From positions 1 to 16,175 of the forward strand of contig CANHZL010000025.1 in the NCBI GenBank assembly GCA_947465345.1: a stretch of 16,175 nt of DNA, given 5' to 3'. The stretch is from Opitutia bacterium (lineage in GTDB: Bacteria > Verrucomicrobiota > Verrucomicrobiae > Opitutales > UBA953). A model generated the notes under the pieces. The model was given only the letters and a program-made list of their open reading frames with translations, was not told the origin of the DNA and did not search any database. Below, piece by piece: positions 2,134 through 15,467 of this stretch. The position numbers and the translations under genes were made by a program. Numbering within the stretch: position 1 is the first letter of the stretch; every line of letters begins with the position of its first letter.

Positions 2134-3693
2134 ATGAGCACCGAAACTACGGTTCCTAATGCGAAGCGCCTACTCTGGGCCGGCTTCATGGCTATCCTCG
2201 CGGCCGGCGTCGGCTTCGCCCTCCGTGGCGGCATCTTCGGCGCTTGGGCGTCCGAATACGGCTTCACCGGCTCCCAGCTCGGTGCCATCGGCGGCGCCGG
2301 CTTCTCGGGCTTCTGCTTCGGTATCATCATCGGCGGCGTGATCGTCGACAAGATCGGCTACGGCAAGCTCGTCGCGGTCGCCCTCGTCGGACACATCCTC
2401 TCAGCGTTCGTGACTTTCGGTGCCTCCACCCCGCAGAACGCCTATGACTTCCTCTATTGGGGTATGTTCATCTTCGCCTTTGCGAACGGCACCCTCGAAG
2501 CCGTGGCCAACCCGCTCGTCGCCACGATCTTCCCCAAGCAGCGCACGCACTACCTCAACATCCTGCACGCCTCCTGGCCCCTCGGCATGGTTGTCGGCGC
2601 CGCCGCCTCCTACCTCCTTGGTTCCGTCCTCCACCTCGGCTGGAAGGGTCAGCTCGCCTTCTACCTCGTCCCGACCATCGCCTACGCGGTGATGTTCATG
2701 GGCCAGTCCTTCCCGAAGTCGGAAGCTGCCGAAAAGGGCGCCTCCTTCTCCGAGATGTTCAAGGACGTCGGCATCCTGGGCTCGCTCGTTGCCTGCTACC
2801 TGCTCTCGATCTTCCTCGGTAACGTCCTCGGCCCAGTGCTCCACATCAATAACCTTGGCCTCTATCTCGCCGGCATCCTCCTGATTGCCGTCGGCGTCAT
2901 CACGCGCTTCTCGCTGGGTTCCCTTCTGCTCTTCGTGCTCTTCATCACCCACGCCATCGTCGGCGCGGTCGAACTCGGCACGGACTCCTGGATCGAAGCC
3001 ATCACCGGCAATCTCTTCACCGCCGAGCAGGGCAAGATGCTCTTCATCTGGACCTCAGCCATCATGTTCGGCCTGCGCTTCTGCGCCCACTTCATCGAAT
3101 CCAAGCTCGGTTTCTCCCCGATTGGCATCCTGGTGACCTCGGCCCTCCTCGCCTTCGCCGGCCTGCAGCTCGCCTCGGGCATGAACAGCTTCGGCGTGGC
3201 CCTCGTCGCCCTCGGCATCTACGCCCTCGGCAAGACGTTCTTCTGGCCCACGATGCTCGCCGTCGTCGGCGACCGCTTCCCGCGCTCCGGCGCCGTCGCG
3301 ATGTCCATCATGGGTGGTATCGGCATGCTCTCCGCTGGCCTGATCGGCGGCCCCGGCCTCGGTTACGCCAAGGACCGCTTCACCGCCGAAGCCCTGCAGA
3401 AAGACGCCCCAGCCGCCTACGCTTCGGCCAAGGCTTCCTCGGAATCTAACTTCCTCTTTCTCGCTCCGGTGACCGCCGTCGCGGGCGACAAGCTCGAAGC
3501 CGCCAAGAAGGCCGGCGAAAAGGGTACGGCCGACCAGAAGGCCATCGTCGCCTCCAACCAGGCCGGTGACCGCGCCACGCTGAAGGCCGACTCCTTCCTG
3601 CCTCTGACCATGGCCGCGATTTACCTGCTACTGCTCTTCTACTTCAAGAGCATCGGCGGCTACCGCGCCCTGAAGATCGAAGAGCAGGTCTAA
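2134..3693 (+). CDS. MFS transporter, sugar-type permease
   Basis: This is a 519-residue inner-membrane protein with about 12 hydrophobic segments. Early marks are [17 protein letters not shown] and, after the second helix, [12 protein letters not shown], the loop 2-3 motif (D-x-x-G-x/K) typical of the major facilitator superfamily. [19 protein letters not shown] and [14 protein letters not shown] recall FucP/GlcP-like sugar permeases and the MFS branch common beside carbohydrate genes in Planctomycetes and Verrucomicrobia. A hydrophilic insertion at about 410-485 (YAKDRF to KADSF, Lys/Ala-rich) precedes the last helix. It is longer than a standard 400-residue member for that reason. It lies downstream of the PAS-AraC regulator and upstream of the Gfo/Idh/MocA gene. 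Substrate unproven; a monosaccharide or uronate is likely. Confidence 0.9.
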
Positions 3694-4965: not shown

Positions 4966-5016
4966 GCGCTGCTCAGCGTGGGGATCCGCTGGCAGGGTGA
5001 ACTGCTGCGAAGCAGT
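4961..5016 (+). repeat. Stop-codon hairpin plus 35-nt 3' motif (copy 1)
   Basis: A 7-bp stem (4961-4967 with 4971-4977) overlaps the TGA stop of the Gfo/Idh/MocA gene. Directly after it, 4977-5011 is a motif CGTGGGG, GCTGGCAGGGTGAAC, GCTGCGAA shared with the ends of two other genes (10007-10041 and, on the minus strand, 11302-11336). In this copy its end folds as ACTGCT-GCGA-AGCAGT (5001-5016), a 6-bp stem with a GNRA tetraloop. Confidence 0.75.
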
Positions 5017-5022
5017 AGGGAG

Positions 5023-5049
5023 GGACAGCACAACGTGCTGTCCTTTTTT
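5023..5049 (+). terminator. Intrinsic terminator of the Gfo/Idh/MocA gene
   Basis: A perfect 9-bp stem GGACAGCAC/GTGCTGTCC with loop AAC is followed by six T. A GTAG lies just before it (5014-5017), and the stem matches the repeat module at 6575-6600, so this terminator is probably a recruited repeat module. Confidence 0.95.
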
Positions 5050-5070: not shown

Positions 5071-5153
5071 CTCCAAAGGGAGACCGGAGACCGGAATGTT
5101 TGCTTCGGTCATATGCCCCAGCCAATCATCCGGTCTCCGGCTTCCCCTTTGAG
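5071..5153 (+). repeat. Second repeat family: inverted repeat with GGTCTCC arms (full copy)
   Basis: The arms of about 22 nt (5074-5096 and 5129-5151) are near-perfect inverted repeats built on CCGGAGACC/GGTCTCCGG with CAAAGGG/CCCTTTG tips. The 32-nt centre is not paired. Degenerate or partial copies in the same orientation are at 5347-5364, 6832-6863 and 14223-14291. Confidence 0.8.
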
Positions 5154-5171: not shown

Positions 5172-5198
5172 GGGTAGGGTCGGGACCGCGTCACGACA
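5172..5198 (+). repeat. Single GTAG-hairpin module, type GTCGGGA
   Basis: GGTAGG is followed by GTCGGGA, loop CCGCG, TCACGAC, a 7-bp stem with one mismatch. Copies at 6618-6642 and 11047-11072 are identical in these bases. Each lies a short way upstream of a full inverted unit. Confidence 0.75.
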
Positions 5199-5210
5199 TA
5201 GCCTACCTGA

Positions 5211-5336
5211 GGTAGGGACGTGATTGCCATCACGTCCGTTCGCCTCCGTATGTCCGTATTCATCGCGCCTAGCTAAGACCCGCCGACTCCCCTTTCACGG
5301 CTTCGAACGGCGGCGATGGCAATCGCCGCCCTACCC
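5211..5336 (+). repeat. REP-doublet-like inverted unit, copy A
   Basis: The left module is GTAG, stem GGACGTGAT, loop TGCC, stem ATCACGTCC, then GTTCG. The right module, inverted, is CGAAC, GGCGGCGAT, loop, ATCGCCGCC, CTAC, with a perfect 9-bp stem. The spacer between them contains the conserved AGCTAAGACCCG. The unit begins GGTAGGG and ends CCCTACC. It sits between the Gfo/Idh/MocA and GH99-like genes. Confidence 0.9.
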
Positions 5337-5346
5337 AAGAGCACGG

Positions 5347-5364
5347 CCAATCATCCGGTCTCCC
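5347..5364 (+). repeat. Fragment of the second repeat family
   Basis: CCAATCATCCGGTCTCC matches the right half of the 5071-5153 element and directly follows copy A. A separate hairpin, GTTCGCC/GGCGAAC (5366-5383), comes next. Confidence 0.6.
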
Positions 5365-5386
5365 CGTTCGCCGCAGGGCGAACCCA

Positions 5387-5450
5387 GGTAGGGGCACGAT
5401 TCATCGTGCACTCCGCAGCAGGAGGGCGCGGCGTAGCCACGCCCCTACCC
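5387..5450 (+). repeat. Compact REP-doublet variant
   Basis: This 64-bp unit begins GGTAGGGGC and ends GCCCCTACCC. The left module is GTAG with stem GCACGAT/ATCGTGC. The right inverted module pairs GGGCGCGGC with GCCACGCCC, with one imperfect pair. The stems differ in sequence from copy A but the plan is the same. After it, 5451-5532 is C-rich with one GCGGC/GCCGC hairpin at 5511-5525. Confidence 0.75.
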
Positions 5451-5532
5451 TCGGCCGCCCTCATCATTTCCCTCTTGCCCACGTGTCACCGTGTCAACTT
5501 GCCCCCTTGCGGCTCCGCCGCATCTTCCCCCC

Positions 5533-6579
5533 GTGGCTCGCCTCCTCTCCACCCTCTTGCTTCTTCCTCTCTCGCTGCTTGCGGCAGATCGCCCGTCGGT
5601 CGGCGCGATTCGCTGGGACGCGTGGAGCGGTGGCGGGGTGACGGAACAGGTCGAACAGACGCTCAGCCCGGAGAAGCATCGCGCCCGTCTGCCGTGGTTC
5701 GCGAAACTCGACACCTCCGGCAACGCGCGCATCGATGCGTCCGCTGATGGGATCATGGAGCAGGAAATCGCGTACGCGAAAGACTCGGGGCTGAACTACT
5801 GGGCGTTCCTTACCTACCCGGAAGGCGATGCGATGAGTTCGGCGCTCACTCGCTACCTGCGTAGCCCGAAGCGCGCCGACCTCGGCTTCTGCCTGATCCT
5901 GCATCAGACGCTTTCCGTGCCGGCCACCCGCTGGCCCGCAGAACGTGGCCGTGTCATCAAACTTCTCCAAGAGCCGGGCTATCAGAGAGTAGGCACTCGA
6001 CCGCTGGTCTTCGCCTTCGACCTCAAGACGGAGCACCCGACGATCAAGCAGCGCTTCGACGAACTGAAGTCAGCGGCAAAGACTGCGGGACTCGATCCCT
6101 ATTTCGTCTACATGGGCTGGAGTCCGGCTCGCGACTACCAGGCGCACGCCACCGAAGGGTTCGCGGCGGTCTCGGCCTACGCCCATCCGGGCAAGGAACC
6201 CGTCTTCGCGAAATACGTCGATGCGTTCGAACAGCACGCCTGGGCCAACGCGCTCGCCACGAAGACGCCCTACATCCCGCTGGTGACGACGGGCTGGGAT
6301 AAGCGTCCGCGTCAGGATCATCCGGTGTCATGGGAGAAGAACGCAGCCTATGCCGACCAAAAGACTTTCCCCGCCGCGCCCACGAACGGCGAACTCACCG
6401 GACACCTTAGCCGCGCGCTCGCCTTCGTGCAGGCCCATCCCGACGTCTGTCCGGCGAACACGGTCATCGTCTACGCCTGGAACGAACACGACGAAGGCGG
6501 TTGGCTCTGCCCCACCTGGACTCCCTCCGGCCAGCCCGACACCTCCCGTCTCGACGCCCTACGCAGCATCCTGAGGTAG
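5533..6579 (+). CDS. Secreted GH99/WbsX-like glycan-active protein
   Basis: This is a 348-residue protein. I chose GTG 5533 because it opens directly on a signal peptide (MARLLSTLLLLPLSLLAA); the GTG at 5491 would translate part of a repeat hairpin. The mature protein begins SVGAIRWDAWSGGG. The C-terminal motif YAWNEHDEGGW (E318, E321) is the counterpart of the WNEW-x-EG motif of GH99 enzymes and WbsX-like proteins, where the acidic residues serve catalysis. The size fits a single (beta/alpha)8 barrel. It is exported and probably cleaves or binds a polysaccharide. The TAG stop lies in the first bases of a repeat module (6575-6600). The large PVC cytochrome follows 371 bp later on the same strand. 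The fold call is moderately sure, the substrate unknown. Confidence 0.75.
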   Translation: MARLLSTLLLLPLSLLAADRPSVGAIRWDAWSGGGVTEQVEQTLSPEKHRARLPWFAKLDTSGNARIDASADGIMEQEIAYAKDSGLNYWAFLTYPEGDAMSSALTRYLRSPKRADLGFCLILHQTLSVPATRWPAERGRVIKLLQEPGYQRVGTRPLVFAFDLKTEHPTIKQRFDELKSAAKTAGLDPYFVYMGWSPARDYQAHATEGFAAVSAYAHPGKEPVFAKYVDAFEQHAWANALATKTPYIPLVTTGWDKRPRQDHPVSWEKNAAYADQKTFPAAPTNGELTGHLSRALAFVQAHPDVCPANTVIVYAWNEHDEGGWLCPTWTPSGQPDTSRLDALRSILR

Positions 6580-6600
6580 GGACAGCACCACTTGCTGTCC
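6575..6600 (+). repeat. Single GTAG-hairpin module supplying a stop codon
   Basis: GGTAGG is followed by GACAGCA and TGCTGTC arms. The TAG inside GGTAGG is the stop of the GH99-like gene. The stem matches the terminator at 5023-5043, but here only TTGT follows. Confidence 0.7.
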
Positions 6601-6617
6601 TTGTCATCTCAGCCCTT

Positions 6618-6642
6618 GGTAGGGTCGGGACCGCGTCACGAC
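6618..6642 (+). repeat. Single GTAG-hairpin module, type GTCGGGA (copy 2)
   Basis: The bases match the modules at 5172 and 11047: GTCGGGA, CCGCG, TCACGAC after GGTAGG. Confidence 0.75.
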
Positions 6643-6696
6643 ATAGGAGCCTCCAGTTCCCGCAGCTCCCATCCGCTAACCGCTATCACCTTCAAT

Positions 6697-6822
6697 GGGT
6701 AGGGGCGCGACTGCGTCGCGTCCGTGCGAGGAGGGAGATACGACGTCTTCGAGCCTAGCTAAGCCCCGACGCCTCCCCTTTCACGGCTTCGAACGGCGGC
6801 GATGGCAATCGCCGCCCTACCC
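6697..6822 (+). repeat. REP-doublet-like inverted unit, copy B
   Basis: The left stem differs from copy A (GGGCGCGAC, loop TGC, GTCGCGTCC) yet pairs along its length with one G-T wobble. The right stem is the perfect GGCGGCGAT/ATCGCCGCC form. The spacer retains AGCTAAG and CCCGACG. It fills the gap before the PVC cytochrome gene. Confidence 0.88.
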
Positions 6823-6831
6823 AAGAACCCA

Positions 6832-6863
6832 GCCAATCCTCCGGTCTCCGGTTTCCCTTTGAG
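6832..6863 (+). repeat. Half copy of the second repeat family
   Basis: CCAATC-TCCGGTCTCCGG and CCCTTTGAG match the right arm of the 5071-5153 element and directly follow copy B, as the 5347 fragment follows copy A. From 6864 to 6950 I see no further repeat and no clear promoter. Confidence 0.65.
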
Positions 6864-6950
6864 TTAATCCCCGCCCTCCACCCGTATCGACGGCTTTTGA
6901 CGCCCTTCTTTAAGATGGAACTCCCCCCGCCCCCTATGGTCATATCAGCC

Positions 6951-9900
6951 ATGCTCCGACTACCCCTGCTCGCGGCAGCCTACCTGGCTGCGCTTCTCGC
7001 CTCGTCCCCGCTCCGCGCCGAAACCTTCTGGGTCTGGGGCGCAAAGAACAACGTGACCAACCAACAGGTCTGGTTCCGCTCCTCCTTCGAGCTGAAGGAA
7101 GTCCCGACCAAGGCCCAGCTTCAGGCTGTCGCCGACAACCACTGCACGGTCTGGCTCAACGGTAAGCAACTCGGCGGCTCCGATGAATGGCAAGAGCCCT
7201 TCGCCGCCGAAGTCAGCGCCGACCTTAAGGCGGGCGTGAACACGATCGCCATCCTCGGCCGTAACGACGGCGGCATCGCTGCGATGGCCTTCCGTCTTTC
7301 CATCGGTAAGAAGGTGCTCGCCGAATCCGGCGACAACTGGAAGACGTCCCTCGCTGATCCCGGCAAAGGCTGGGAAGCCGCCGGCTTCGACGACGCGAAG
7401 TGGACCGCCGCGACGATCGTGAAGAAAATGGGCGAACAGCCCTGGGGTAACTCCTTTAGCGGCAACAAGCCTCTCGCCAAAGGCGGTAAGCGCACCCCGG
7501 CCTCTTCGGTCGCTCCGGCCGATGAACTCATCCTCCTCCCGGGCTTCAAAGCCGAGCTGCTGCACCTCGTCCCGAAGGCGGAACAGGGCACCTGGGTCTC
7601 CCTCGCGGTCTCGCCCGAAGGCGACCTCGTCGCCGGCGACCAAGGCGGCGTGCTCTGGCGCATCTCCCTCAAGGATCCGACGAAGCCCGTCGTGACCAAG
7701 ATCGACACGAAGGCCTTCGGCTGCCACGGCCTACTCTTCGCCCACGGCGCCCTCTACGCGTGCGCGAGCGAAAAGGGTAAGGGCGATATCTGGCGCCTGC
7801 GCGACACGAAGGGCGACGGCTCCTACGCCGAACAGACGCTGATCCGCGCCCTCAAAGGCTCCGGTGAACACGGCCCACACCAGCTCGTCCTCGACCGCGA
7901 CGGCTCGATCCTCGTCTTCGGTGGTAACCACACGAAGCTGCCCGACGACGAGAAGGCCGGCGCGGCCGCCAAGCATTACGACGAAGACGACCTGCTGAAG
8001 AAGTTCGAGGACGCCAACGGCCACGCCTCCGGCATCAAGGCCGTCGGCGGCTGGATCGCCCGCATGGATAAGGACGGCAAGGACTGGATCCGCGTGACGA
8101 CCTGCTTCCGCAATCCGTATGACGGCGCGGTCGCTCCGGACGGTGACATCTTCTCCTACGACTCCGACATGGAGTGGGACATGGGCGCTCCTTGGTATCG
8201 CCCGACCCGTATCAATCTCTGCACGCCCGGCGGCGAACTCGGTTGGCGCTCCGGTGCCGGCAATAACGCGCAGGCCCTCGTCGACTCCCAGCCTGCACTC
8301 GTCGACATCGGCCCCGGCAGCCCGACAGGTTGCACGATGGGCACCGGCGCGAAATTCCCCGCCGCCTATCAGCGCGCGTTCTTCGCCTGCGATTGGACCT
8401 ACGCCACGCTCTACGCCATCGTCCTAGAACCCGAAGGTGGCGCTTGGAAAGCCCGCCGCGAAGTCTTCGCCGCTGGCAAGCCGTTCTCCGTCACTGACGC
8501 GGTCATCCGCCCGCAAGACGGACACATGTATGTGACCATCGGCGGTCGCGGCGGTCAGTCCGCGCTTTATCGCATCACCTACCAGGGCAAGGAATCCACC
8601 GCGCCGGCCGCCTGGTTTACGGCCACGCCTGAACAGAAGCTCCGCCGCGAACTCGAAGCCTTGCGCGACGTCGCTCCGTCCGCCGCCGCCCTCGACAAAG
8701 CCTGGCCGCTCATGGGCCACCCTGATCGCTGGGTCCGCTTCGCCGCCCGCATCGCCGTCGAACACCAGCCGGTCGCCAGCTGGCGCGCCCGCGTGCAGGC
8801 CGACGCCAACGTCGACCTCGCGCTCAACGCCGCTACTGCCCTCGCTCGTTGTGGCGAAGCTTCCGACCTCGCGGCCATCGTCGCCGCGGCGGATAGCGCC
8901 CTGAAGTCTAAGGACCTCCGCCTGCAACAGGATCGCCTGCGCGTCTTCCAGATCGCCTTCTCGCGCCGCGGCAAGCCCGACGCCGCCACGGCCAAGCGCC
9001 TCGGCAAGGAAGCCGCCGACCGTCTTCCTTCCGGCGATAACGCCCTCGACCGCCAGCTCGCGACGATCGCGATCTTCTTCGAAGAACCCACCGCTCCGGC
9101 CCGCGTGCTGAAGGCGATGAAGTTCGCCCAGCCCGGACCCGCCGTCGTCGCCGATCCAGAAGTGCTCGCCCGCCACCCAGGTTACGCCAAGGCCGCCGCC
9201 GCCGCAATGGCCGTCACGCCTTCCTCCACGCGCATCGGCCTCGCGGTCTATCTCTGCCGCGCCACCGTCGGTTGGACGCCAGAACTGCGCAAAGAGTTCT
9301 TCGGTTTCCTCGACGGTCTCTCGCAGGCCGAAGGCGGACACTCGCTCAAGGGCTTCGTCCGCAACATCCGCAAGGAATCCCTCGCCGCCGCTCCGGAAGC
9401 CGAACGCGCCGCCCTCGAAGAGATCGCGCCCGCCACGCCACGCAAGGCCGCCGCGCCGATCCCGACCGCTTCCGGTCCCGGTCGTCTCTGGACGCACGCC
9501 GAAGCCCTCAAGGTCTGGGAAACCGCCAAGGCCGAGAAGTCCTTCGATTTCGCCAACGGCCAGAAGATGTTTGCTGCTGCGCTCTGCTCGCAGTGCCACC
9601 GCCTCGGCGACAACGGCGGTGCGCAGGGTCCGGATCTCTCCGGCCTCGGTGCCCGTACCGCGCCGGCCGACGTCCTGATGAGCGTCATCCAGCCCAGCGC
9701 CATCGTCTCCGACCAATACTCGAACTCGATCATCGGTCGCGTCGACGGCGGTAAGACCATCGGCCGTATCCTCAACGAAGCAGGCGACAAGCTACAGCTC
9801 GCGGTCAACCCGTTCGACTTCTCGGTCCAGCTCGCGGTCAACCGCTCGGATATCCTGAGCATCGATCGCTCGCCGGAAAGCCCGATGCCCGTCGGCCTGC

Positions 9901-9989
9901 TCAACTCGCTCAACGCCCAGGAAGTCGCTGACCTCCTCGCCTACCTCATCTCCGGCGCGAACCCCAAGGACCCGATGTTCACGAAGTGA
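6951..9989 (+). CDS. Large secreted PVC-type heme-binding protein: carbohydrate-binding, beta-propeller, HEAT and cytochrome c domains
   Basis: This is a 1,012-residue exported protein from ATG 6951; upstream ATGs at 6915 and 6936 only add a Pro-rich lead. A signal peptide (1-23, ending PLRA) is followed by a jelly-roll-like domain (about 24-150; WLNGKQLGGSDEWQ) as in carbohydrate-binding modules. Residues about 190-550 look like a glucose/sorbosone-dehydrogenase-type beta-propeller (ELILLPGFKAELL, GEHGPHQLVLDRDGS, CFRNPYDGAVAPDGDIF). Residues about 580-840 are Ala-rich helices of HEAT type. A C-terminal cytochrome c has CSQCH at 879-883 and MPVGLLNSL with M979, the PVC heme-binding signature. 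It probably oxidises sugars in the periplasm and passes electrons to a carrier such as the cytochrome at 598-1062. A UUCG terminator follows. Confidence 0.92.
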   Translation: MLRLPLLAAAYLAALLASSPLRAETFWVWGAKNNVTNQQVWFRSSFELKEVPTKAQLQAVADNHCTVWLNGKQLGGSDEWQEPFAAEVSADLKAGVNTIAILGRNDGGIAAMAFRLSIGKKVLAESGDNWKTSLADPGKGWEAAGFDDAKWTAATIVKKMGEQPWGNSFSGNKPLAKGGKRTPASSVAPADELILLPGFKAELLHLVPKAEQGTWVSLAVSPEGDLVAGDQGGVLWRISLKDPTKPVVTKIDTKAFGCHGLLFAHGALYACASEKGKGDIWRLRDTKGDGSYAEQTLIRALKGSGEHGPHQLVLDRDGSILVFGGNHTKLPDDEKAGAAAKHYDEDDLLKKFEDANGHASGIKAVGGWIARMDKDGKDWIRVTTCFRNPYDGAVAPDGDIFSYDSDMEWDMGAPWYRPTRINLCTPGGELGWRSGAGNNAQALVDSQPALVDIGPGSPTGCTMGTGAKFPAAYQRAFFACDWTYATLYAIVLEPEGGAWKARREVFAAGKPFSVTDAVIRPQDGHMYVTIGGRGGQSALYRITYQGKESTAPAAWFTATPEQKLRRELEALRDVAPSAAALDKAWPLMGHPDRWVRFAARIAVEHQPVASWRARVQADANVDLALNAATALARCGEASDLAAIVAAADSALKSKDLRLQQDRLRVFQIAFSRRGKPDAATAKRLGKEAADRLPSGDNALDRQLATIAIFFEEPTAPARVLKAMKFAQPGPAVVADPEVLARHPGYAKAAAAAMAVTPSSTRIGLAVYLCRATVGWTPELRKEFFGFLDGLSQAEGGHSLKGFVRNIRKESLAAAPEAERAALEEIAPATPRKAAAPIPTASGPGRLWTHAEALKVWETAKAEKSFDFANGQKMFAAALCSQCHRLGDNGGAQGPDLSGLGARTAPADVLMSVIQPSAIVSDQYSNSIIGRVDGGKTIGRILNEAGDKLQLAVNPFDFSVQLAVNRSDILSIDRSPESPMPVGLLNSLNAQEVADLLAYLISGANPKDPMFTK

Positions 9990-10041
9990 GCGCTGAGCGA
10001 TCACTTCGTGGGGTTCTGCTGGCAGGGTGAACTGCTGCGAA
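9980..10041 (+). repeat. Stop-codon hairpin plus 35-nt 3' motif (copy 2)
   Basis: A perfect 10-bp stem CACGAAGTGA (9980-9989) with TCACTTCGTG (10001-10010) ends exactly on the TGA stop of the PVC cytochrome. The shared motif (CGTGGGG, GCTGGCAGGGTGAAC, GCTGCGAA) occupies 10007-10041. Confidence 0.75.
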
Positions 10042-10052
10042 ACCAAAGATCA

Positions 10053-10076
10053 GGGCGGCTTCGGCCGCCCTTTTTT
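10053..10076 (+). terminator. Intrinsic terminator of the PVC cytochrome gene, UUCG loop
   Basis: The stem GGGCGGC/GCCGCCC (10053-10059, 10064-10070) closes a TTCG tetraloop and is followed by six T. Confidence 0.96.
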
Positions 10077-10103
10077 ATGCCCGCTGGATTTTGCTTCACC
10101 CCC

Positions 10104-10143
10104 ATGTCCCCGTGCCAGCGTATCCCCTCGCGGCTCCGCCGCG
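10104..10143 (+). repeat. Third repeat type: TCCCC...GCGGC hairpin tag
   Basis: ATGTCCCC, TGCCAGCG, TCCCCTCGCGGC and a CGCGGC/GCCGCG hairpin (10129-10143) recur at 13277-13316 and, with a longer GGCC hairpin, within 11270-11296 and 13237-13263. Here it abuts copy D. Confidence 0.6.
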
Positions 10144-10145
10144 CT

Positions 10146-10273
10146 GGGTAGGGACGTGATTGCCATCACGTCCGTTCGCCAGCGCACGCCATAACTTCAC
10201 CGTTCTTCGCTAAGCCCCGACGACTCTGCTCCTGCGGAGTCGAACGGCGGCGATAGCAATCACCGCCCTACCC
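10146..10273 (+). repeat. REP-doublet-like inverted unit, copy D
   Basis: The left stem is GGACGTGAT/ATCACGTCC with loop TGCC, then GTTCG. The right stem is GGCGGCGAT/ATCACCGCC with one C-A mismatch on this strand, which is a G-T wobble on the other. The spacer has GCTAAGCCCCGACGACT plus its own GACTC/GAGTC pair. The remaining 10274-10383 holds the tRNA promoter region; no confident promoter is seen. Confidence 0.88.
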
Positions 10274-10383
10274 AAGGCACAGCAGAGGGCATAAATACCC
10301 CTGTTCCGATGGGCCTTGCCCACCCAGCGGCGTTTAATTCTTGCCCGCCCGCCATCCAGGGACTTCCTCAACTGTCCTGGATA

Positions 10384-10471
10384 GGAGGGGTGGCAGAGTG
10401 GTCGATTGCGTCTGATTCGAAATCAGATGAACCGCAAGGTTCCGGGGGTTCGAATCCCTTCCCCTCCGCCA
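10384..10471 (+). tRNA. tRNA-Ser (anticodon CGA), CCA encoded
   Basis: The acceptor stem GGAGGGG (10384-10390) pairs with CCCCTCC (10461-10467), with discriminator G and CCA encoded at 10469-10471. The anticodon arm is TCTGA-TTCGAAA-TCAGA with anticodon CGA, reading UCG serine codons. A long variable arm AACC-GCAA-GGTT is the class II mark of Ser. The T-loop is TTCGAAT; the T-stem ends in two G-T pairs. The eight bases TGTCCTGG just upstream (10373-10380) are complementary to CCAGGACA (10469-10476), so leader and trailer can pair. Confidence 0.97.
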
Positions 10472-10501
10472 GGACAATTTCATCGTTCGCGAGCTGAGGG
10501 T

Positions 10502-10963
10502 TCAATGTCTTGAGATGGTGCTCAGCTCATTTTTAGCTCGCTCGATCGCATCTTCGAGCCGCTGCAGCGCATTACGCAACACGGCGTCGACGACCTCGCT
10601 GTTCGGGATGCGATGATGCGCCGCGAGGATGGCCTCGATCGAGCAGACTAAGAGTGGGGTCGGAGCTTCGACCAAGAAGAACTTCACGCCAGGCGTTTCA
10701 GCGTTGAGGCGGACCGCCAAGCGGCGGGCAGGCTCCATCCCGTGCATGCCGCGGGCAAACGGAAGCTGCGCCTGCAATGCCATGATCTCGGGCGAATTAA
10801 CCGAGTCGAAGGACAGGATGAACTCGCGGCGGCCGTTGAGCGCCTTGAAACGAAGTGCCACCTGGTAGTCGCTCGTCTGTGTGACCACACTCACGTCCTC
10901 CCAAGCCACCTCGCGGATTGCGCGGATATAGAGGAGTTTCAGCTCTTCAGTCGGAAACAGCAT
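10502..10963 (-). CDS. Conserved-looking small soluble protein of unknown function
   Basis: This is a 153-residue cytoplasmic protein without signal or membrane segments. A GGTGAGGG run lies just before the ATG, one of the few Shine-Dalgarno-like leaders in the window. The predicted order is helix (TEELKLLYIRAIREV), several strands (VSVVTQTSDYQVALRFKAL, REFILSF), helix, strands (GVKFFLVEA, LLVCSIEAI) and a long charged C-terminal helix (VLRNALQRLEDAIERAKNEL). This alpha-beta pattern loosely recalls YbjN-like or secretion-chaperone-like folds, but I do not recognise the family. It stands alone on the minus strand between the tRNA and a repeat cluster. Confidence 0.7.
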   Translation of the reverse strand: MLFPTEELKLLYIRAIREVAWEDVSVVTQTSDYQVALRFKALNGRREFILSFDSVNSPEIMALQAQLPFARGMHGMEPARRLAVRLNAETPGVKFFLVEAPTPLLVCSIEAILAAHHRIPNSEVVDAVLRNALQRLEDAIERAKNELSTISRH

Positions 10964-11003
10964 ACCCTCACCATGCCCACCTGCTAAGTGCCTGCAATCC
11001 CCA

Positions 11004-11030
11004 GGTAAGGGCCAGCACCGCGTGCTGCCC
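11004..11030 (+). repeat. Degenerate single module with GTAA foot
   Basis: GGTAAG is followed by GGGC(C)AGCAC, loop CGC, GTGCTGCCC, a 9-bp stem with one bulged C. The foot is GTAA where other copies have GTAG. Confidence 0.6.
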
Positions 11031-11046
11031 TAGCTGCATCTGCCTT

Positions 11047-11072
11047 GGGTAGGGTCGGGACCGCGTCACGAC
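11047..11072 (+). repeat. Single GTAG-hairpin module, type GTCGGGA (copy 3)
   Basis: The bases match 5172 and 6618, again a few bases before a full inverted unit. Confidence 0.75.
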
Positions 11073-11077
11073 ATAGC

Positions 11078-11309
11078 CTGCCTCGGGTAGGGACGTGATT
11101 GCCATCACGTCCGTTCGCGGACGCACGGCCGACGTCATCGCACCAAGCTAAGACCCGTCGACTTCCCTCCTGCGGTCTAGAACGGCGGCGATAGCAATCA
11201 CCGCCCTACCCAAGGCCCCACCCGCCACCTGAAACGATGTCTCTGCTTCGCAGCATGCCAGCGTGCCAGCATGTCCCCTCGCGGCCTCCGGCCGCGCCTG
11301 CTTCGCAGC
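11078..11309 (+). repeat. Left 232-bp direct repeat, containing inverted unit copy E (11085-11211)
   Basis: This block matches 13045-13276 at a constant offset of 1,967 bp with no gaps. By eye I count 10 mismatches, all in the first 102 bp; the last 130 bp (from 11180) are identical. It contains a full inverted unit (left stem GGACGTGAT, right stem GGCGGCGAT/ATCACCGCC), a CTGCTTCGCAG palindrome and a GCGGCC/GGCCGC hairpin. Confidence 0.9.
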
Positions 11310-11355
11310 CGTTCACCATGCCAGCAGTTCCCCACGAAGGCGAAGCCTTCGCCTT
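11302..11355 (-). repeat. Stop-codon hairpin plus 35-nt 3' motif (copy 3)
   Basis: On the minus strand, the palindrome AAGGCGAAG/CTTCGCCTT (11337-11355) overlaps the TAA stop of the esterase. The shared motif follows at 11336-11302 (CGTGGGG, GCTGGCATGGTGAAC, GCTGCGAA). It overlaps the last bases of the 232-bp direct repeat. Confidence 0.75.
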
Positions 11356-12544
11356 ACTTCTGCGCCGCGCGTATCTGCAGATTCGCCTCGGCGAACGCCT
11401 CGCCCATGAGCGCGAAAGTCTTGGCGCAACCGAGATAATGATAGCCGGCGTTGGACGCGCCTCGCTTCTGCATGGCGGCCTCCTCGGGCGAGATCAGCTT
11501 GGCCTCGTAGTCCTTGAGGTACTCCCGCTGCTGCGCTTCGGTCATCTTGCCGTCGGCGTTGGCCGACCGCTTCCCCTTGGTGCGTAGCTCATAACCCATC
11601 TGGCGGACCTTCTCTTTCTTATCCTGGATGGCGCCCAGTTTCTCGTCCCAGAACGGCGCGGTCCGCACAGCGATGACGTTACCCTTGAACTCAGGCAGCG
11701 CGGCCGGCGCGGCCATGGCTTCGCGGAAGGCAAGATTGTCCTCGCTGCCGGGATCCTTGCCGCCGACGCCCATGACGCCGATGACGAACGGGAGCTTGGG
11801 TGCGCCGAGGTCCTTCCGGACGTCGCGGATGAAGGCGCTGAGATAATTCGAATATGGCGCGAAGCGTTGGCCGGCTTCGCCCTTGGGCCGACGTGGATAT
11901 AAATTGCCATCCACCATATCATTAAAGCCCTGCAGCCAGATGAACCCGGCCAGCTCGTTACCTTCCTTGGAGTCATAGGCGGGGCAGACGCGTCCCGGAT
12001 TGGCCAAGACCTGTTTCGCATGCGCGAGCATGAGCCGGTAATAATGACCGGCATTGGCGAGCGAGTTTTTGTCGGTCTCGAGGTCGCGGGCTGTCCGCTG
12101 ATACGGGCCCGCGCCGGGCGAACGGAAATCGTAGCTCAACGACTTACCGCCCCAGGCGGCCTTGATGAGTAAGACGGGGCCTTTGCCCGCACGCTCCATC
12201 GCTAGACCGAAAGTATACTCGGGCCCGATCTTCCCGCCATCCTTGGCCGGATCCTGGCGTGAGCCGTAACCGGTCGTCAGCGGACCGAAGCCTTCGCCGT
12301 TCTTGTCACCGATGCCGGTGTAATACGAGATCCACACGTTCTTCGCGGTCGCTGGTTTACCGTCCGGACCGAGCATGCGCTTCAGCAACGGCGCGGTCGC
12401 TGGGTCTTCGCCGATATAATCGATGGTCTCGACCCGTGCATGACCTTCCATGTTCGACTGCCCCACGAGAATATAAACCTGTAGCGGCTTCGCTTCAGCC
12501 ACGGCCACAGCCAGCGCAAACCATACGAGGAGGGGGACTCTCAT
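11354..12544 (-). CDS. Secreted SGNH esterase, sialate O-acetylesterase type
   Basis: This 396-residue enzyme has a signal peptide (1-18, VPLLVWFALAVAVAEA). The SGNH blocks are visible: GQSNMEG with nucleophile S30, KAAWGGKSL with the oxyanion Gly at 132-133, and QGFND with N208. H369 in NAGYHYLG is the probable catalytic His of block V; the usual upstream Asp is replaced by Ala-Gly. The family (SASA domain) removes O-acetyl groups from sialic acids or plant and algal polysaccharides, outside the cytoplasm. Length is usual for single-domain members of this group. The GIY-YIG gene ends 38 bp upstream on the same strand, and the pair is enclosed by 232-bp direct repeats. Confidence 0.92.
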   Translation of the reverse strand: MRVPLLVWFALAVAVAEAKPLQVYILVGQSNMEGHARVETIDYIGEDPATAPLLKRMLGPDGKPATAKNVWISYYTGIGDKNGEGFGPLTTGYGSRQDPAKDGGKIGPEYTFGLAMERAGKGPVLLIKAAWGGKSLSYDFRSPGAGPYQRTARDLETDKNSLANAGHYYRLMLAHAKQVLANPGRVCPAYDSKEGNELAGFIWLQGFNDMVDGNLYPRRPKGEAGQRFAPYSNYLSAFIRDVRKDLGAPKLPFVIGVMGVGGKDPGSEDNLAFREAMAAPAALPEFKGNVIAVRTAPFWDEKLGAIQDKKEKVRQMGYELRTKGKRSANADGKMTEAQQREYLKDYEAKLISPEEAAMQKRGASNAGYHYLGCAKTFALMGEAFAEANLQIRAAQK

Positions 12545-12582
12545 GCCGACTTTATGCCGTCCCCAGCGACGCCCTGCAACCC

Positions 12583-12996
12583 TCAGGATGAGATGACAGC
12601 GAAGCCTTCTGCGCGCAGTAAAGCGGCGACCTTGGCCTCACGCACCCGCGGATCACTCATCTGTCGTTTGGCTAAGCGGGCGATTTGCTTACGCACTTCC
12701 GGGGACACGCCTCGGCCGAAATCGGCTTCACCTTCGTCAAGCGGGACGGGGCGCTGTTTATATTTCCGAATCCACCCCCGGCCGGCCTTAATGCCGCTGA
12801 GGTGCTGCTGATAGCGCGTCTCGAATGGTCGCGAGGTCTGTCCGACGTAATAGACCTTCAACTTGGTGACCGCCTGCGGATTCTTTTCCTGCACCGATTT
12901 ACGGTCACCCGGCTTGAAGCTATCGAGCCCGACCAAGAGCACCGCATAGACGATGCTACCCGGCGGCTCATGCGAACGATCTTCAGTCGGTTCCAT
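12583..12996 (-). CDS. Single-domain GIY-YIG nuclease
   Basis: This is a 137-residue protein from ATG 12996 (MEPTEDRS); a GTG at 13023 would add nine Gly-rich residues. The two half-motifs are IVYAVLLV (for GIY) and KVYYVGQTSRP (for YIG), about 30 residues apart, wider than usual because of a polar insertion. R in TSRPFETRYQQH is the expected catalytic Arg region. The C-terminal helix EAKVAALLRAEGFAVIS holds a candidate for the metal-binding Glu. It has no fused domain, so a role in repair or element mobility cannot be decided. It lies inside the direct-repeat cassette, upstream of the esterase. Confidence 0.8.
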   Translation of the reverse strand: MEPTEDRSHEPPGSIVYAVLLVGLDSFKPGDRKSVQEKNPQAVTKLKVYYVGQTSRPFETRYQQHLSGIKAGRGWIRKYKQRPVPLDEGEADFGRGVSPEVRKQIARLAKRQMSDPRVREAKVAALLRAEGFAVISS

Positions 12997-13044
12997 GCCC
13001 CCACCCTGCCCATTGCCGGCCACCCCGCAACCCCACTATCCTAA

Positions 13045-13276
13045 CTGCCTCGGGTAGGGACGTGATTGCCATCACGTCCGTTCGCGGACGGATAGCGGAC
13101 ATCATCGGGCCAAGCTAAGACCCGACGACTTCCCGCCTGCGGTCTCGAACGGCGGCGATAGCAATCACCGCCCTACCCAAGGCCCCACCCGCCACCTGAA
13201 ACGATGTCTCTGCTTCGCAGCATGCCAGCGTGCCAGCATGTCCCCTCGCGGCCTCCGGCCGCGCCTGCTTCGCAGC
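13045..13276 (+). repeat. Right 232-bp direct repeat, containing inverted unit copy F (13052-13178)
   Basis: This is the partner of 11078-11309. The unit has left stem GGACGTGAT/ATCACGTCC and right stem GGCGGCGAT/ATCACCGCC. The sequence CGTCCGTTCGCGGACG can also fold as a 6-bp stem with a TTCG loop, sharing bases with the left stem. The identical 130-bp tail runs on to 13276. Confidence 0.9.
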
Positions 13277-13316
13277 ATGTCCCCATGCCCACATATCCCC
13301 TCGCGGCTACGCCGCG
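13277..13316 (+). repeat. Third repeat type, copy next to the outer-membrane gene stop
   Basis: ATGTCCCC, TCCCCTCGCGGC and the hairpin CGCGGC/GCCGCG (13302-13316) match 10104-10143. The hairpin starts one base after the TGA of the minus-strand gene at 13318 and could shape its mRNA end. Confidence 0.6.
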
Positions 13317-13317
13317 C

Positions 13318-14169
13318 TCAAAACCTCCAGCGCGAACCGAGGCTGATCAGGAGGCCCGGGGCGAGATCGTATTCGCTTTCGACGCCACCGACTTCGCGAC
13401 GGGCCTGCGCACGGAAGGCCCAGCCAAGGGAGATTTCGTCGGTGCGGCCATCGGCGGTGCGACGCAAGCCGAAGAGCGCCGCGACGCGTTCACTCTCATA
13501 ATCCTGACGCTGGCCAGCGAGATCGGCGAGGCGCGCTTCTTCCTGCTGGAAGGCGAGGGTCAGCGAGGCGCGCCAGGCTTCGTCGAGCTTACGCTCGAGC
13601 ACGAGGGACTTGCGACCGGTGCCGAGCGACCAATCCGGAGCGAACTGCCAGCGGAACGTCGGGACGACCAAGACCATCGGCGACCGCACCGCGCGGGTCT
13701 CGGCGAGGAATAGATAACCGAGCGTGAAAGTCTCCGAGCGACGCCAGTCGGCGCCATAGAGGGCCTGGACGGTGAGGGCATCGCCGAGCGAGACGCCTTC
13801 CGCGGCATCGCCGTTGACCTGCAAGACCGCGTAACGGGAACGACCAGCTTCGGTGGAGGCGTAGCCGCTGAGATTAAGCGACGCACCACGGACCAGATCA
13901 AAGGTAACCGGCGCCGCGGTCCAATCGTGACGGGTCTGCGCATACCGGAAGCCCCAGTCGTATTGCCAGGAGCCGGTCTTCAACAGCGGGAAATTACCCG
14001 TCACTTCGAAACCCGTCGCGCGATCCTCGGCCTTGCCCTCGCCGGAAGCCGAAGCGGAAGTGAATCGAACGCCCACGCCTTCGAAGCCCGCCCGCGGCCG
14101 AGGCGCTTCAGCGAAGACGGCGGCGGCGAACAGAAGCGGAAGGAGGCGGTAGAACATGTCCCGTATCAT
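13318..14169 (-). CDS. Outer-membrane beta-barrel protein
   Basis: This is a 283-residue protein with a signal peptide (LLPLLFAAAVFAEA). The start is ATG 14169 or, equally possible, ATG 14157 (MFYRLLP). The body is a run of amphipathic strands with alternating aromatic and polar residues (GSWQYDWGFRYAQ, FTLGYLFLAETRAV, VLVVPTFRWQF, DEISLGWAFRAQAR). It ends RWRF, the C-terminal aromatic signal read by the BAM complex. It resembles the DUF6268-like barrels of Bacteroidetes and Verrucomicrobia, though this is from memory. No catalytic motif is seen; it may be a channel or structural barrel. A repeat hairpin lies directly after its stop. Confidence 0.78.
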   Translation of the reverse strand: MIRDMFYRLLPLLFAAAVFAEAPRPRAGFEGVGVRFTSASASGEGKAEDRATGFEVTGNFPLLKTGSWQYDWGFRYAQTRHDWTAAPVTFDLVRGASLNLSGYASTEAGRSRYAVLQVNGDAAEGVSLGDALTVQALYGADWRRSETFTLGYLFLAETRAVRSPMVLVVPTFRWQFAPDWSLGTGRKSLVLERKLDEAWRASLTLAFQQEEARLADLAGQRQDYESERVAALFGLRRTADGRTDEISLGWAFRAQARREVGGVESEYDLAPGLLISLGSRWRF

Positions 14170-14222
14170 CCTGATTCCCCGGGTATGTCAATTGAGGTCG
14201 GCGGGCGGACCAATCCGTCACA

Positions 14223-14291
14223 ATGGGAGACCAGAAATCGGAACAAATGCTGCGGACATAAACCCCGTCTAATCATCCAGTCTCCTTTGAG
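14223..14291 (+). repeat. Degenerate copy of the second repeat family
   Basis: GGGAGACC, CGGACATA, CCCC, TAATCATCCAGTCTCC and TTTGAG line up with 5071-5153 in the same order and orientation, but the arms no longer pair well. A decayed GTAGGGATTACCCC remnant follows (14308 onward). I see nothing else in 14170-14404. Confidence 0.6.
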
Positions 14292-14404
14292 TTCTATCTG
14301 CCTCTAAGTAGGGATTACCCCATAGCCAGGCTCACGACTTCACCTCAGGCCTCCGCTGTCGGCTTGCTGATGTTCGATCCGTCGCCGCAACCTCGGCGCC
14401 GTGC

Positions 14405-14767
14405 ATGTGGCAATACCTGATCACCCCGCAGTTCGAACGCTCTAAGAAGCGCTACGACAAGAAGCGGCCGGCCGAACTGGCGGCCGTGTTTCGCAATCTC
14501 GATCGACTACGTGAACAGCTCAACGGGATCCCCCACTGTCGCGCGGCTCAAGCGGGCTTTCTCCATCACGAGCCCGAGGGAATCTGGGCACTCGACCAGA
14601 AAGGGCCCAGTCGGACGAAGCTCCAAGAGACCCGGCTCTACGTGTTTCCGGAGGAGGAAACTGAGGCCTTGCACATTATAACTGTGGGGAATAAAAATTC
14701 CCAAGGCGCCGATTTACAGTGTGCCCTCGCTTACGTCCAATCCCTCGAACCTCCTCGCCAGCCATGA
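14405..14767 (+). CDS. RelE/HigB-like toxin of a type II toxin-antitoxin pair
   Basis: This is a 120-residue basic protein. It begins MWQYLITPQFERSKKRYDKK and continues with a helical pair (AAVFRNLDRLREQL) and strands TRLYVFPEEETEALHIITVG, the order of the RelE/ParE/HigB mRNA-interferase or gyrase-inhibitor fold. The sequence is divergent and the exact subgroup is unclear. The stop TGA overlaps the start ATG of the HTH gene by four bases (ATGA), so the two are translationally coupled. Toxin-first order is the HigBA arrangement. If a true toxin, it would cleave mRNA on the ribosome. I saw no clear promoter. Confidence 0.75.
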   Translation: MWQYLITPQFERSKKRYDKKRPAELAAVFRNLDRLREQLNGIPHCRAAQAGFLHHEPEGIWALDQKGPSRTKLQETRLYVFPEEETEALHIITVGNKNSQGADLQCALAYVQSLEPPRQP

Positions 14768-15348
14768 GCTCTCCGCGCCCCTTTCGACCAGCCAAGTCTG
14801 CCCAGCGGACCTATGCTTCCGTCGAAGCCCTCATGAAGGGCGAAGGCCTGGGCGATGCGGTGCAAAAGACCTATGCCCAACTTGTCCAAGATACCTGCGT
14901 CACCGACGGCCTGACGCGTCTGCGCCGCCGGGCGAAACTGACGCAGGCGGAGGTCGCTAAGCGATTAGGCGTTACCCAGGCCGCGGTCTCCAAAATTGAA
15001 TCAGGCCGCGATGAGACGCTGACCCTTGCCATCATCAGCGCCTACGCCTCGACGAGCCGACAGCGGATCACCTTCAGCTTCGGCAAGCCCCTGACGCACG
15101 TGGAAGCGGTGAAGCAGCATGCCCTCGGCTTACGGCATCATTTGGAAGCCTTGGCCTCACTCGCGCACAAGGACGAAGCCATCGCGCGGGATATCGCCGG
15201 CTTCTTCCGCGAGGCATCTCTCAACATCGACCAGATCGTCGCCCACTGTCGCGAGCGCTTGCCGAAGAACACAAAGGTCGAGGTCCGCATGCAGACCCAC
15301 GTCGGGCCAATTACCGAAACGCCGGCCATCAAGACTGCCTCGAGGTAG
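14764..15348 (+). CDS. XRE-family HTH antitoxin with C-terminal extension
   Basis: This 194-residue protein starts at ATG 14764 inside the toxin's stop. The helix-turn-helix is at about 50-95: LTRLRRRAKLTQAEVAKRLG, then VTQAAVSKIESGRDETL, a textbook Cro/C1 fold. It is longer than usual HigA-type antitoxins (about 100 residues). An N-terminal 45 residues (EALMKGEGLGDAVQKTYAQL) and a C-terminal helical part (HALGLRHHLEALASLAHKDE and on) flank the HTH. It should bind the toxin and repress the operon. The TAG stop lies in the first bases of repeat copy G. Confidence 0.88.
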   Translation: MSSPRPFRPAKSAQRTYASVEALMKGEGLGDAVQKTYAQLVQDTCVTDGLTRLRRRAKLTQAEVAKRLGVTQAAVSKIESGRDETLTLAIISAYASTSRQRITFSFGKPLTHVEAVKQHALGLRHHLEALASLAHKDEAIARDIAGFFREASLNIDQIVAHCRERLPKNTKVEVRMQTHVGPITETPAIKTASR

Positions 15349-15467
15349 GGACGGCTCTCCGAGCCGTCCGTTCGCGGACGGACATATGCCTTCGCCGAAC
15401 TTAACTAAGACCCGACGACTTTTCACCTGCGGTCTCGAACGGCGGCGATGGCAATCACCGCCCTACC
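15344..15467 (+). repeat. REP-doublet-like inverted unit, copy G
   Basis: The left stem is a new sequence, GGACGGCTC/GAGCCGTCC with loop TCC, again perfectly paired and followed by GTTCG. The right stem is GGCGGCGAT/ATCACCGCC. The spacer keeps CTAAGACCCGACGACT. The unit fills the gap between two convergent genes and could end both transcripts. Confidence 0.9.

Follow-up and report, generated by a model that had tools for sequence, protein, structure and literature searches.

The question raised by a 16,175-base stretch of a freshwater Opitutia bacterium genome (contig CANHZL010000025.1, 64% G+C; hereafter the window) is what the hairpin pairs that recur between its genes are and how they came to be there. 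Our analysis points, with a probability of roughly 0.87, to REPINs, doublets of repetitive extragenic palindromic (REP) sequences, copied by a REP-associated tyrosine transposase (RAYT, or TnpAREP) of a clade defined by a GTAG foot and a 9-bp stem. This reading follows from the GTAG hairpin pairs themselves, their copies in relatives, the match between RAYT clades and the hairpins that flank them, and the presence of one doublet type (type II) beside the RAYT of locus L147. REPINs are a known kind of element, but this lineage is rich in matched RAYT/REP classes.

GTAG hairpin doublets in the window and its relatives

Six long units were present where the original prediction had placed units of about 125 bp, each measuring 122-124 bp foot to foot and consisting of two inverted modules with GTAG facing outward. 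The predicted module design was largely borne out: all 12 modules carried GTAG, a 9-bp stem opening with GG (G-T pairs counted) and a 3-4 nt loop, but the proposed GTTCG tail was exact in only 10, the exceptions being GTGCG (6699) and GTTCT (11184). The left stem was GGACGTGAT-TGCC in four units, and the right stem was GGCGGCGAT in two and GGCGGTGAT in four. Doublets with the TGCC loop fell into two types, type I with GTTCG at both ends, which includes most window units, and type II with GTTCG and GTGGG. The type I unit at 5212..5334 pairs a GGACGTGAT-TGCC module (+) with a GGCGGCGAT-TGCC module (-), with tails GTTCG/GTTCG. Those at 10148..10271, 11087..11209 (right tail GTTCT) and 13054..13176 combine GGACGTGAT-TGCC with GGCGGTGAT-TGCT. 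The remaining two have a type I core and a different left stem: GGGCGCGAC-TGC (tail GTGCG) with GGCGGCGAT-TGCC on the right at 6699..6820, and GGACGGCTC-TCC with GGCGGTGAT-TGCC on the right at 15345..15466. A segment of 259 nt containing unit 13054 (13045-13303) was 93% identical to 11078-11336. All six units lay outside the frames taken as genes, intergenic placement being checked in the window only, save for four bases (15345-15348) of the last unit, where the TAG of the foot is the stop codon of gene 14764-15348. An Rfam scan of the window matched only a tRNA (10384-10468).

To compare the hairpins with chance expectation we used a sample of 400 kb (L225-L244) of the 438-kb contig C12 of relative G020, which was not chosen by pattern. 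In this sample GTAG was the foot of 22 perfect 9-bp hairpins, compared with 8 for the runner-up of the 256 possible feet (GAAC, probably the same hairpins read off the opposite strand) and a median of 0; the conserved GTAG foot on which the prediction leaned was in this way recovered in a relative. Five Markov controls gave 0, 1, 0, 0 and 0 such hairpins, and between 6 and 13 bp no stem length other than 9 bp gave more than one GTAG hairpin. Among loci fetched by pattern, and hence enriched, the stem was exactly 9 bp in 480 of 490 GTAG hairpins. Pairing was also maintained where the search had not demanded it. In GTTCG-tailed modules with a 4-nt loop, 200 of 212 paired at all 7 variable positions; 40 distinct modules paired at a mean of 6.65 of 7 positions, compared with 4.40 (maximum 5.15) when the arms were shuffled. 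At the stem positions left free by the fetch pattern (3-7), both sides changed together 13, 12, 2, 16 and 17 times, respectively, among 28 distinct fully paired forms.

Copy number and RAYT content were analyzed in the genomes of relatives. With a module pattern in which the loop and two closing A-T pairs were fixed and five stem positions free, at least 120 stretches in at least 24 assemblies were found among the genome-contig matches listed, and there was no match in viral contigs. Those 24 assemblies were mostly titled Opitutae, Opitutia, Opitutales, Opitutus, Verrucomicrobia or Verrucomicrobiota. In the bacterial family of relative G013, modules with the same loop occurred in 33 of 79 genomes at 1-113 per genome, which bears out the expectation of a high copy number; a reversed control pattern gave 0 matches in the 79. 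A looser pattern allowing any loop matched 54 of 79 genomes, yet its control matched too. The listed loci (at least 120) and the window together contained 151 units in which a short diverse spacer separates two inverted REPs. The closest relatives by the MFS protein of the window (2134-3693) were G006 (94%), G007 (93%) and G012 (94% over a 174-residue fragment). Two assemblies titled Polynucleobacter meluiroseus and Akkermansia muciniphila (L007 = G006 and L033 = G018) carried the same REPINs and close orthologues of window genes; these titles are probably wrong.

RAYT transposases and the hairpins that flank them

A RAYT-linked REP family, as had been proposed, was supported in the relatives by many copies, by conserved GTAG feet and by RAYT genes. 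The latter encode small Y1 proteins of about 150 aa, in which the HUH histidines (H70, H72) and Y123 were invariant across 13 aligned RAYTs; in a separate alignment of eight (A3), the L180 protein has R in place of the second HUH histidine. NCBIfam REP_Tyr_transpos was by far the best family for the three small RAYTs tried (67-76 bits, E 1e-18 to 3e-21), none of which reached its 80-bit cut-off. The best match of a small-RAYT profile in the PDB was E. coli TnpAREP (4er8, E = 2.6e-17), and a RAYT structure model (mean pLDDT 74) matched the same fold at E = 3.3e-9. These proteins are RAYTs with conserved HUH and Tyr residues, and they are predicted to cleave single-stranded REPs. PF01797 alone was too insensitive a probe (15 of 24 genomes); the RAYTs' own profile found them in 17 of the 24 pattern-match genomes and in 33 of the 79 family genomes, and profile A3 gave matches in 72 of 372 genomes of the order. 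The longer Y1 proteins that PF01797 also found (mostly about 300 aa) were left out, their 15 loci containing a single GTAG hairpin (L124).

We examined the flanks of 55 RAYT domains, each 110 aa or longer (59 in all, four shorter ones being dropped), with identical ones counted once. GTAG modules were present on both sides of 45, on one side of 7 and on neither side of 3. The upstream and downstream modules of the same RAYT were nearly alike (mean distance 0.74, compared with 5.71 when sides were permuted). The likeness was retained within single genomes: for the 27 RAYTs of nine genomes that carry more than one, the module distance was 0.66 compared with 5.57 after permutation. RAYT distance and hairpin distance were correlated in a Mantel test (rho 0.67; 0.57 for 22 dereplicated RAYTs; 0/2000 permutations each), and every clade of the RAYT tree had its own stem and loop. 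By our grouping, about fifteen RAYT/REP classes exist inside one bacterial family. Beyond the family, matching GTAG or GTGG hairpins stood on both sides at 23 of 57 listed RAYT places in the order. The TAG of the downstream GTAG foot was the stop codon of the RAYT gene at L127 (1839), L133 (1785) and L148 (1866). Positioning of GTAG feet to provide stop codons was considered and rejected: of 480 feet, 39 close frames of at least 100 codons, compared with 18 and 25 for the two alternative frames and 10.4% for TAG triplets in general.

The link to the window units runs through the two doublet types. The intact RAYT of L147 had two type II doublets on each side, a type II variant flanked the RAYT of L187, and at L216 a type II doublet stood on one side of a broken RAYT. 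GTAGGGACGTGAT-TGCC hairpins may be recognised by RAYTs of the L147/L187 clade, and type I units may be moved in trans by a RAYT of the L147 type. As single-stranded DNA, three type I units each folded into one long hairpin (z -3.2 to -5.0 over six strands), including the unit at 5212..5334 (z -4.1 and -4.6 for the two strands); a type II unit folded into two separate hairpins (z -3.7 and -3.4). As non-autonomous REP doublets copied by a small single-strand DNA transposase, the units would move as follows. Each end of the single-stranded element would fold into a GTAG-footed hairpin, or alternatively, in type I, both ends would pair into one long hairpin; the RAYT would recognise foot, stem and loop, its tyrosine would cleave beside the foot, and the element would be joined elsewhere. 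For binding, cleavage and strand transfer this scheme would follow the biochemistry of the E. coli, Stenotrophomonas and Marinomonas enzymes as given in PMC8266576.

Orthologous sites and alternative explanations

Orthologous sites differed in the units that they contained. In both G018 and G009, the gap of unit 6699 held a REPIN that was shorter and had different stems, and in G009 a GGACGGCTG/GGCGGGTTG pair occupied the gap of unit 10148. At one gap where G003 and G008 carry a type II unit, G006 has a compact pair instead. At one site G013 had a tandem unit where G003 had a single one, and elsewhere a unit was reduced to one REP in G010. In eight orthologous sites, hand-picked from 57 candidates, there was a single case of a hairpin class switch (ACGTGAT-TGCC to GCGCGAC-TGC) with the core and partner hairpin kept, seen in G010 compared with G003 and G013. 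In G017, what looked like an insertion in the MFS gene was not a REPIN. The protein encoded at 6969-9989 was 98% identical to its orthologues in G018 and G009, but identity to G018 was 85% for the MFS protein, and identity to both genomes was 76% for the 11357-12544 protein, which points to recombination between species at this place.

Several observations weigh against the RAYT-driven reading. The copy and RAYT counts come from relatives, not from the window's own genome. Type I doublets, with GTTCG at both tails, flanked 0 of 55 RAYTs; the predicted flanking of a RAYT by the same modules was found for modules of the same kind but at 0 of 55 RAYTs for the exact window subtype. A RAYT of the matching clade was present in the module-rich genomes G013 (113 copies) and G016 (26), and none was seen in G001 (73), G010 (61) and G003 (43). 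The RAYTs may be missing because of assembly: the assemblies are fragmentary, RAYT genes stand between repeats, and some of them (L182, L193, L204) are found where a contig ends. The dinucleotide CT, at which known RAYTs cleave, speaks both ways. Of 471 modules, 106 had it starting at -5, 85 at -9 and 65 at -6, where about 26 would be expected at any one position, which favours the RAYT reading; yet it occupied no single fixed place. Finally, no clean empty site was identified, the orthologous gaps that were read holding other REPs. In the empty-site survey of 30 loci, both flanks were placed in order in 4 (three gaps read; the gap of 390 at L330 not read), 23 had one or both flanks missing and 3 had flanks out of order.

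The absence of type I from RAYT flanks would also be expected if type I units were dead relics that had lost their RAYT, with only type II and the other classes still moving. We regard this as a tentative alternative and rather doubtful. Type I cores were more diverged than type II cores (mean identity 0.50 compared with 0.60; best pair 0.93 compared with 1.00), as a relic would be; the arms, however, were nearly as well kept (0.89 compared with 0.91), and the GGACGTGAT-TGCC arm is common to both types, so a type II RAYT may act on type I units in trans. A further reading makes the units transcription terminators or mRNA-stabilising hairpins that are retained for the host, irrespective of how they arose. 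It fits their intergenic position and the behaviour of another REP class of these genomes, GGACAGCAC, in which a T run followed 5 of 23 exact copies (in the listed loci, at least 120) and such a hairpin with its T run lay behind the same gene in four relatives (L154 156, L155 4324, L156 4354, L157 177). A REP of that class may serve as a terminator, or the reverse. The window units differ: no T run followed any of the 12 modules in the six units, where the tails were GTTCG, GTGCG or GTTCT, and TTTTT followed only 7 of 490 GTAG hairpins (pattern-fetched loci and window). Termination, moreover, needs neither a GTAG foot nor a fixed 9-bp stem nor a match to RAYTs, and a host role of this kind is very improbable as the explanation. 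Least probable are miniature inverted-repeat elements (MITEs) of a classical DD(E/D) transposase, which would likewise be short, non-coding and inverted at the ends; here each end is a GTAG-footed hairpin and not a simple terminal repeat, and the genes that match encode Y1/HUH transposases, DD(E/D) genes not having been searched for.

The window also contained GTAG hairpins of other classes. The compact unit of the original prediction was confirmed as an inverted GTAG hairpin pair (5388..5448), but of a separate class, GGGCACGA-TTCA/GGGCGTGGC-TAC, with tails TCCGC/TCCTG and an imperfect left stem. It closely resembles the modules flanking the RAYT of L143 in G016, and also resembles a pair at an orthologous gap in G006. 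Two further GTAG hairpins had not been predicted. One (6576..6600, +) is a single imperfect hairpin of the GGACAGCAC-CAC class, which has a RAYT clade of its own in relatives; gene 5491-6579 uses the TAG of this hairpin as its stop codon. The other (about 5015-5046) is a close variant of the GGACAGCAC-class T-run hairpin. An imperfect GGTAGGGTCGGGACCGCGTCACGACATAG hairpin, a further degenerate GTAG class, occurred three times just ahead of REPINs (5173-5201, 6618-6646, 11048-11076). A short repeat, CCAATCATCCGGTCTCCGG..., was present at 5117-5149, 5342-5374 and 6828-6860 and inverted at 5074-5104, near two REPINs; it could represent either a second family of repeats or a preferred target. Copies of a 43-nt repeat that ends in a palindrome rich in G+C lay at 5482-5524, 10103-10145, 11254-11296, 13221-13263 and 13276-13318, the copy at 10103-10145 immediately preceding a REPIN. 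Directly before the last REPIN, the overlapping frames 14405-14767 and 14764-15348 look, by eye, like a RelE/HigB-like toxin and a helix-turn-helix antitoxin.

Hairpin recognition and comparison with known systems

The family may offer a natural experiment in hairpin recognition, in which about fifteen RAYT clades meet different GTAG hairpins and protein position 92 best tracks stem and loop; a second, weaker signal links residue 4 to the base after the stem. We put this forward as a lead that is still somewhat less probable than its opposite. For each alignment column, residue difference was correlated with hairpin difference after overall protein distance had been regressed out, with significance judged against the largest of 300 family-wise permutations at three dereplication levels. 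For stem and loop together, position 92 ranked first of 118-119 columns at all three levels (0.40, 0.52 and 0.47), exceeding the largest permuted value at two (0.31 and 0.38) but not at the third (0.47). It also led five of the six tests on stem or loop alone, coming second in the sixth, and was above the largest permuted value in three of the six. Position 92 (R92 of the L147 RAYT) lies in helix 82-95 of the predicted model and aligns with lysine 82 of 4er8 (profile alignment, our count); according to PMC8266576, K82 of the E. coli enzyme, in helix alpha-3, contacts REP base C27.

The residue at this position followed a simple pattern, being small or uncharged where the stem has CC at positions 7-8 and mostly Arg, His or Lys with other stems. 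Within the family, it was G, C, Q or T in all 11 RAYTs whose two nearest stems both have CC at positions 7-8, and R or H in 30 of 32 whose stems lack CC (A in the other two); of two RAYTs with mixed stems, one had G and one R. Outside the family, the three RAYTs with CC in at least one stem had S, A and G; among 20 lacking CC, 17 had R, K or H, the others being one I, one Q and one gap. Both tables were already known when we formulated this rule, and the independent changes that it covers on the tree are few. Within the family, residue 4 (Pro or other) strongly tracked whether G or T follows the stem (0.50, 0.72 and 0.75; largest permuted 0.29, 0.56 and 0.68), but the signal was not confirmed outside the family, where 13 of 14 RAYTs with a G tail had Pro and 2 of 4 with a T tail lacked it (P = 0.11, five mixed rows omitted). 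If these signals are real, the hairpin would be read via two separable contacts, and a few paired stem changes would let an element pass to another RAYT, as at the single G010 site. Recognition of perfect-stem REPs is only speculated on for want of structures, with helix alpha-3 suggested (PMC8266576), and whether REP tails are read is left open (PMC3733652). Matched transposase-hairpin pairs could show how such enzymes choose their DNA, and the 45 RAYTs flanked on two sides in one family, with the 23 in the order, are enough to derive and test a recognition code.

Among open-licence papers, we found none on these repeats in freshwater Opitutae, and for Verrucomicrobia only PMC3733652 was relevant. 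The prediction that few such families have been described in this lineage holds in that sense, but few is not none: that 2013 paper places GTAG repeats in the PVC superphylum, with Opitutus terrae highly enriched. The window units resemble its O. terrae families GTAG-17, GTAG-19 and GTAG-20, from the same phylum and, by most record titles, the same class, in having GTAG-tagged hairpins, inverted (HH) doublets and several families per genome, a comparison made by description and not by sequence. They differ in that the partners of GTAG-17 HH doublets are 1-2 bp apart, compared with about 70 bp here. Pseudomonas and Stenotrophomonas REPINs and RAYTs (PMC2817692, PMC8049555, PMC3116915) share with the present system inverted doublets, a diverse spacer, RAYTs with matching REPs, agreement of RAYT and REP trees (coevolution in Stenotrophomonas, PMC2817692) and solo REPs as decay products (remains of REPINs, PMC8049555). 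Unlike those systems, the present one has other stems and loops, belongs to another phylum, and combines about fifteen classes in one family with nearly fixed 9-bp stems. The perfect-palindrome REPs of group 3 TnpAREP, to judge from the S. maltophilia example in PMC8266576, likewise have a perfect stem after GTAG and a short loop, whereas the tails 3' of the stem are conserved here. E. coli TnpAREP (4er8) is the best match in both sequence and fold, with HUH and Tyr aligned; the E. coli REPs have a bulged stem (PMC8266576), unlike the perfect stems of the present family.

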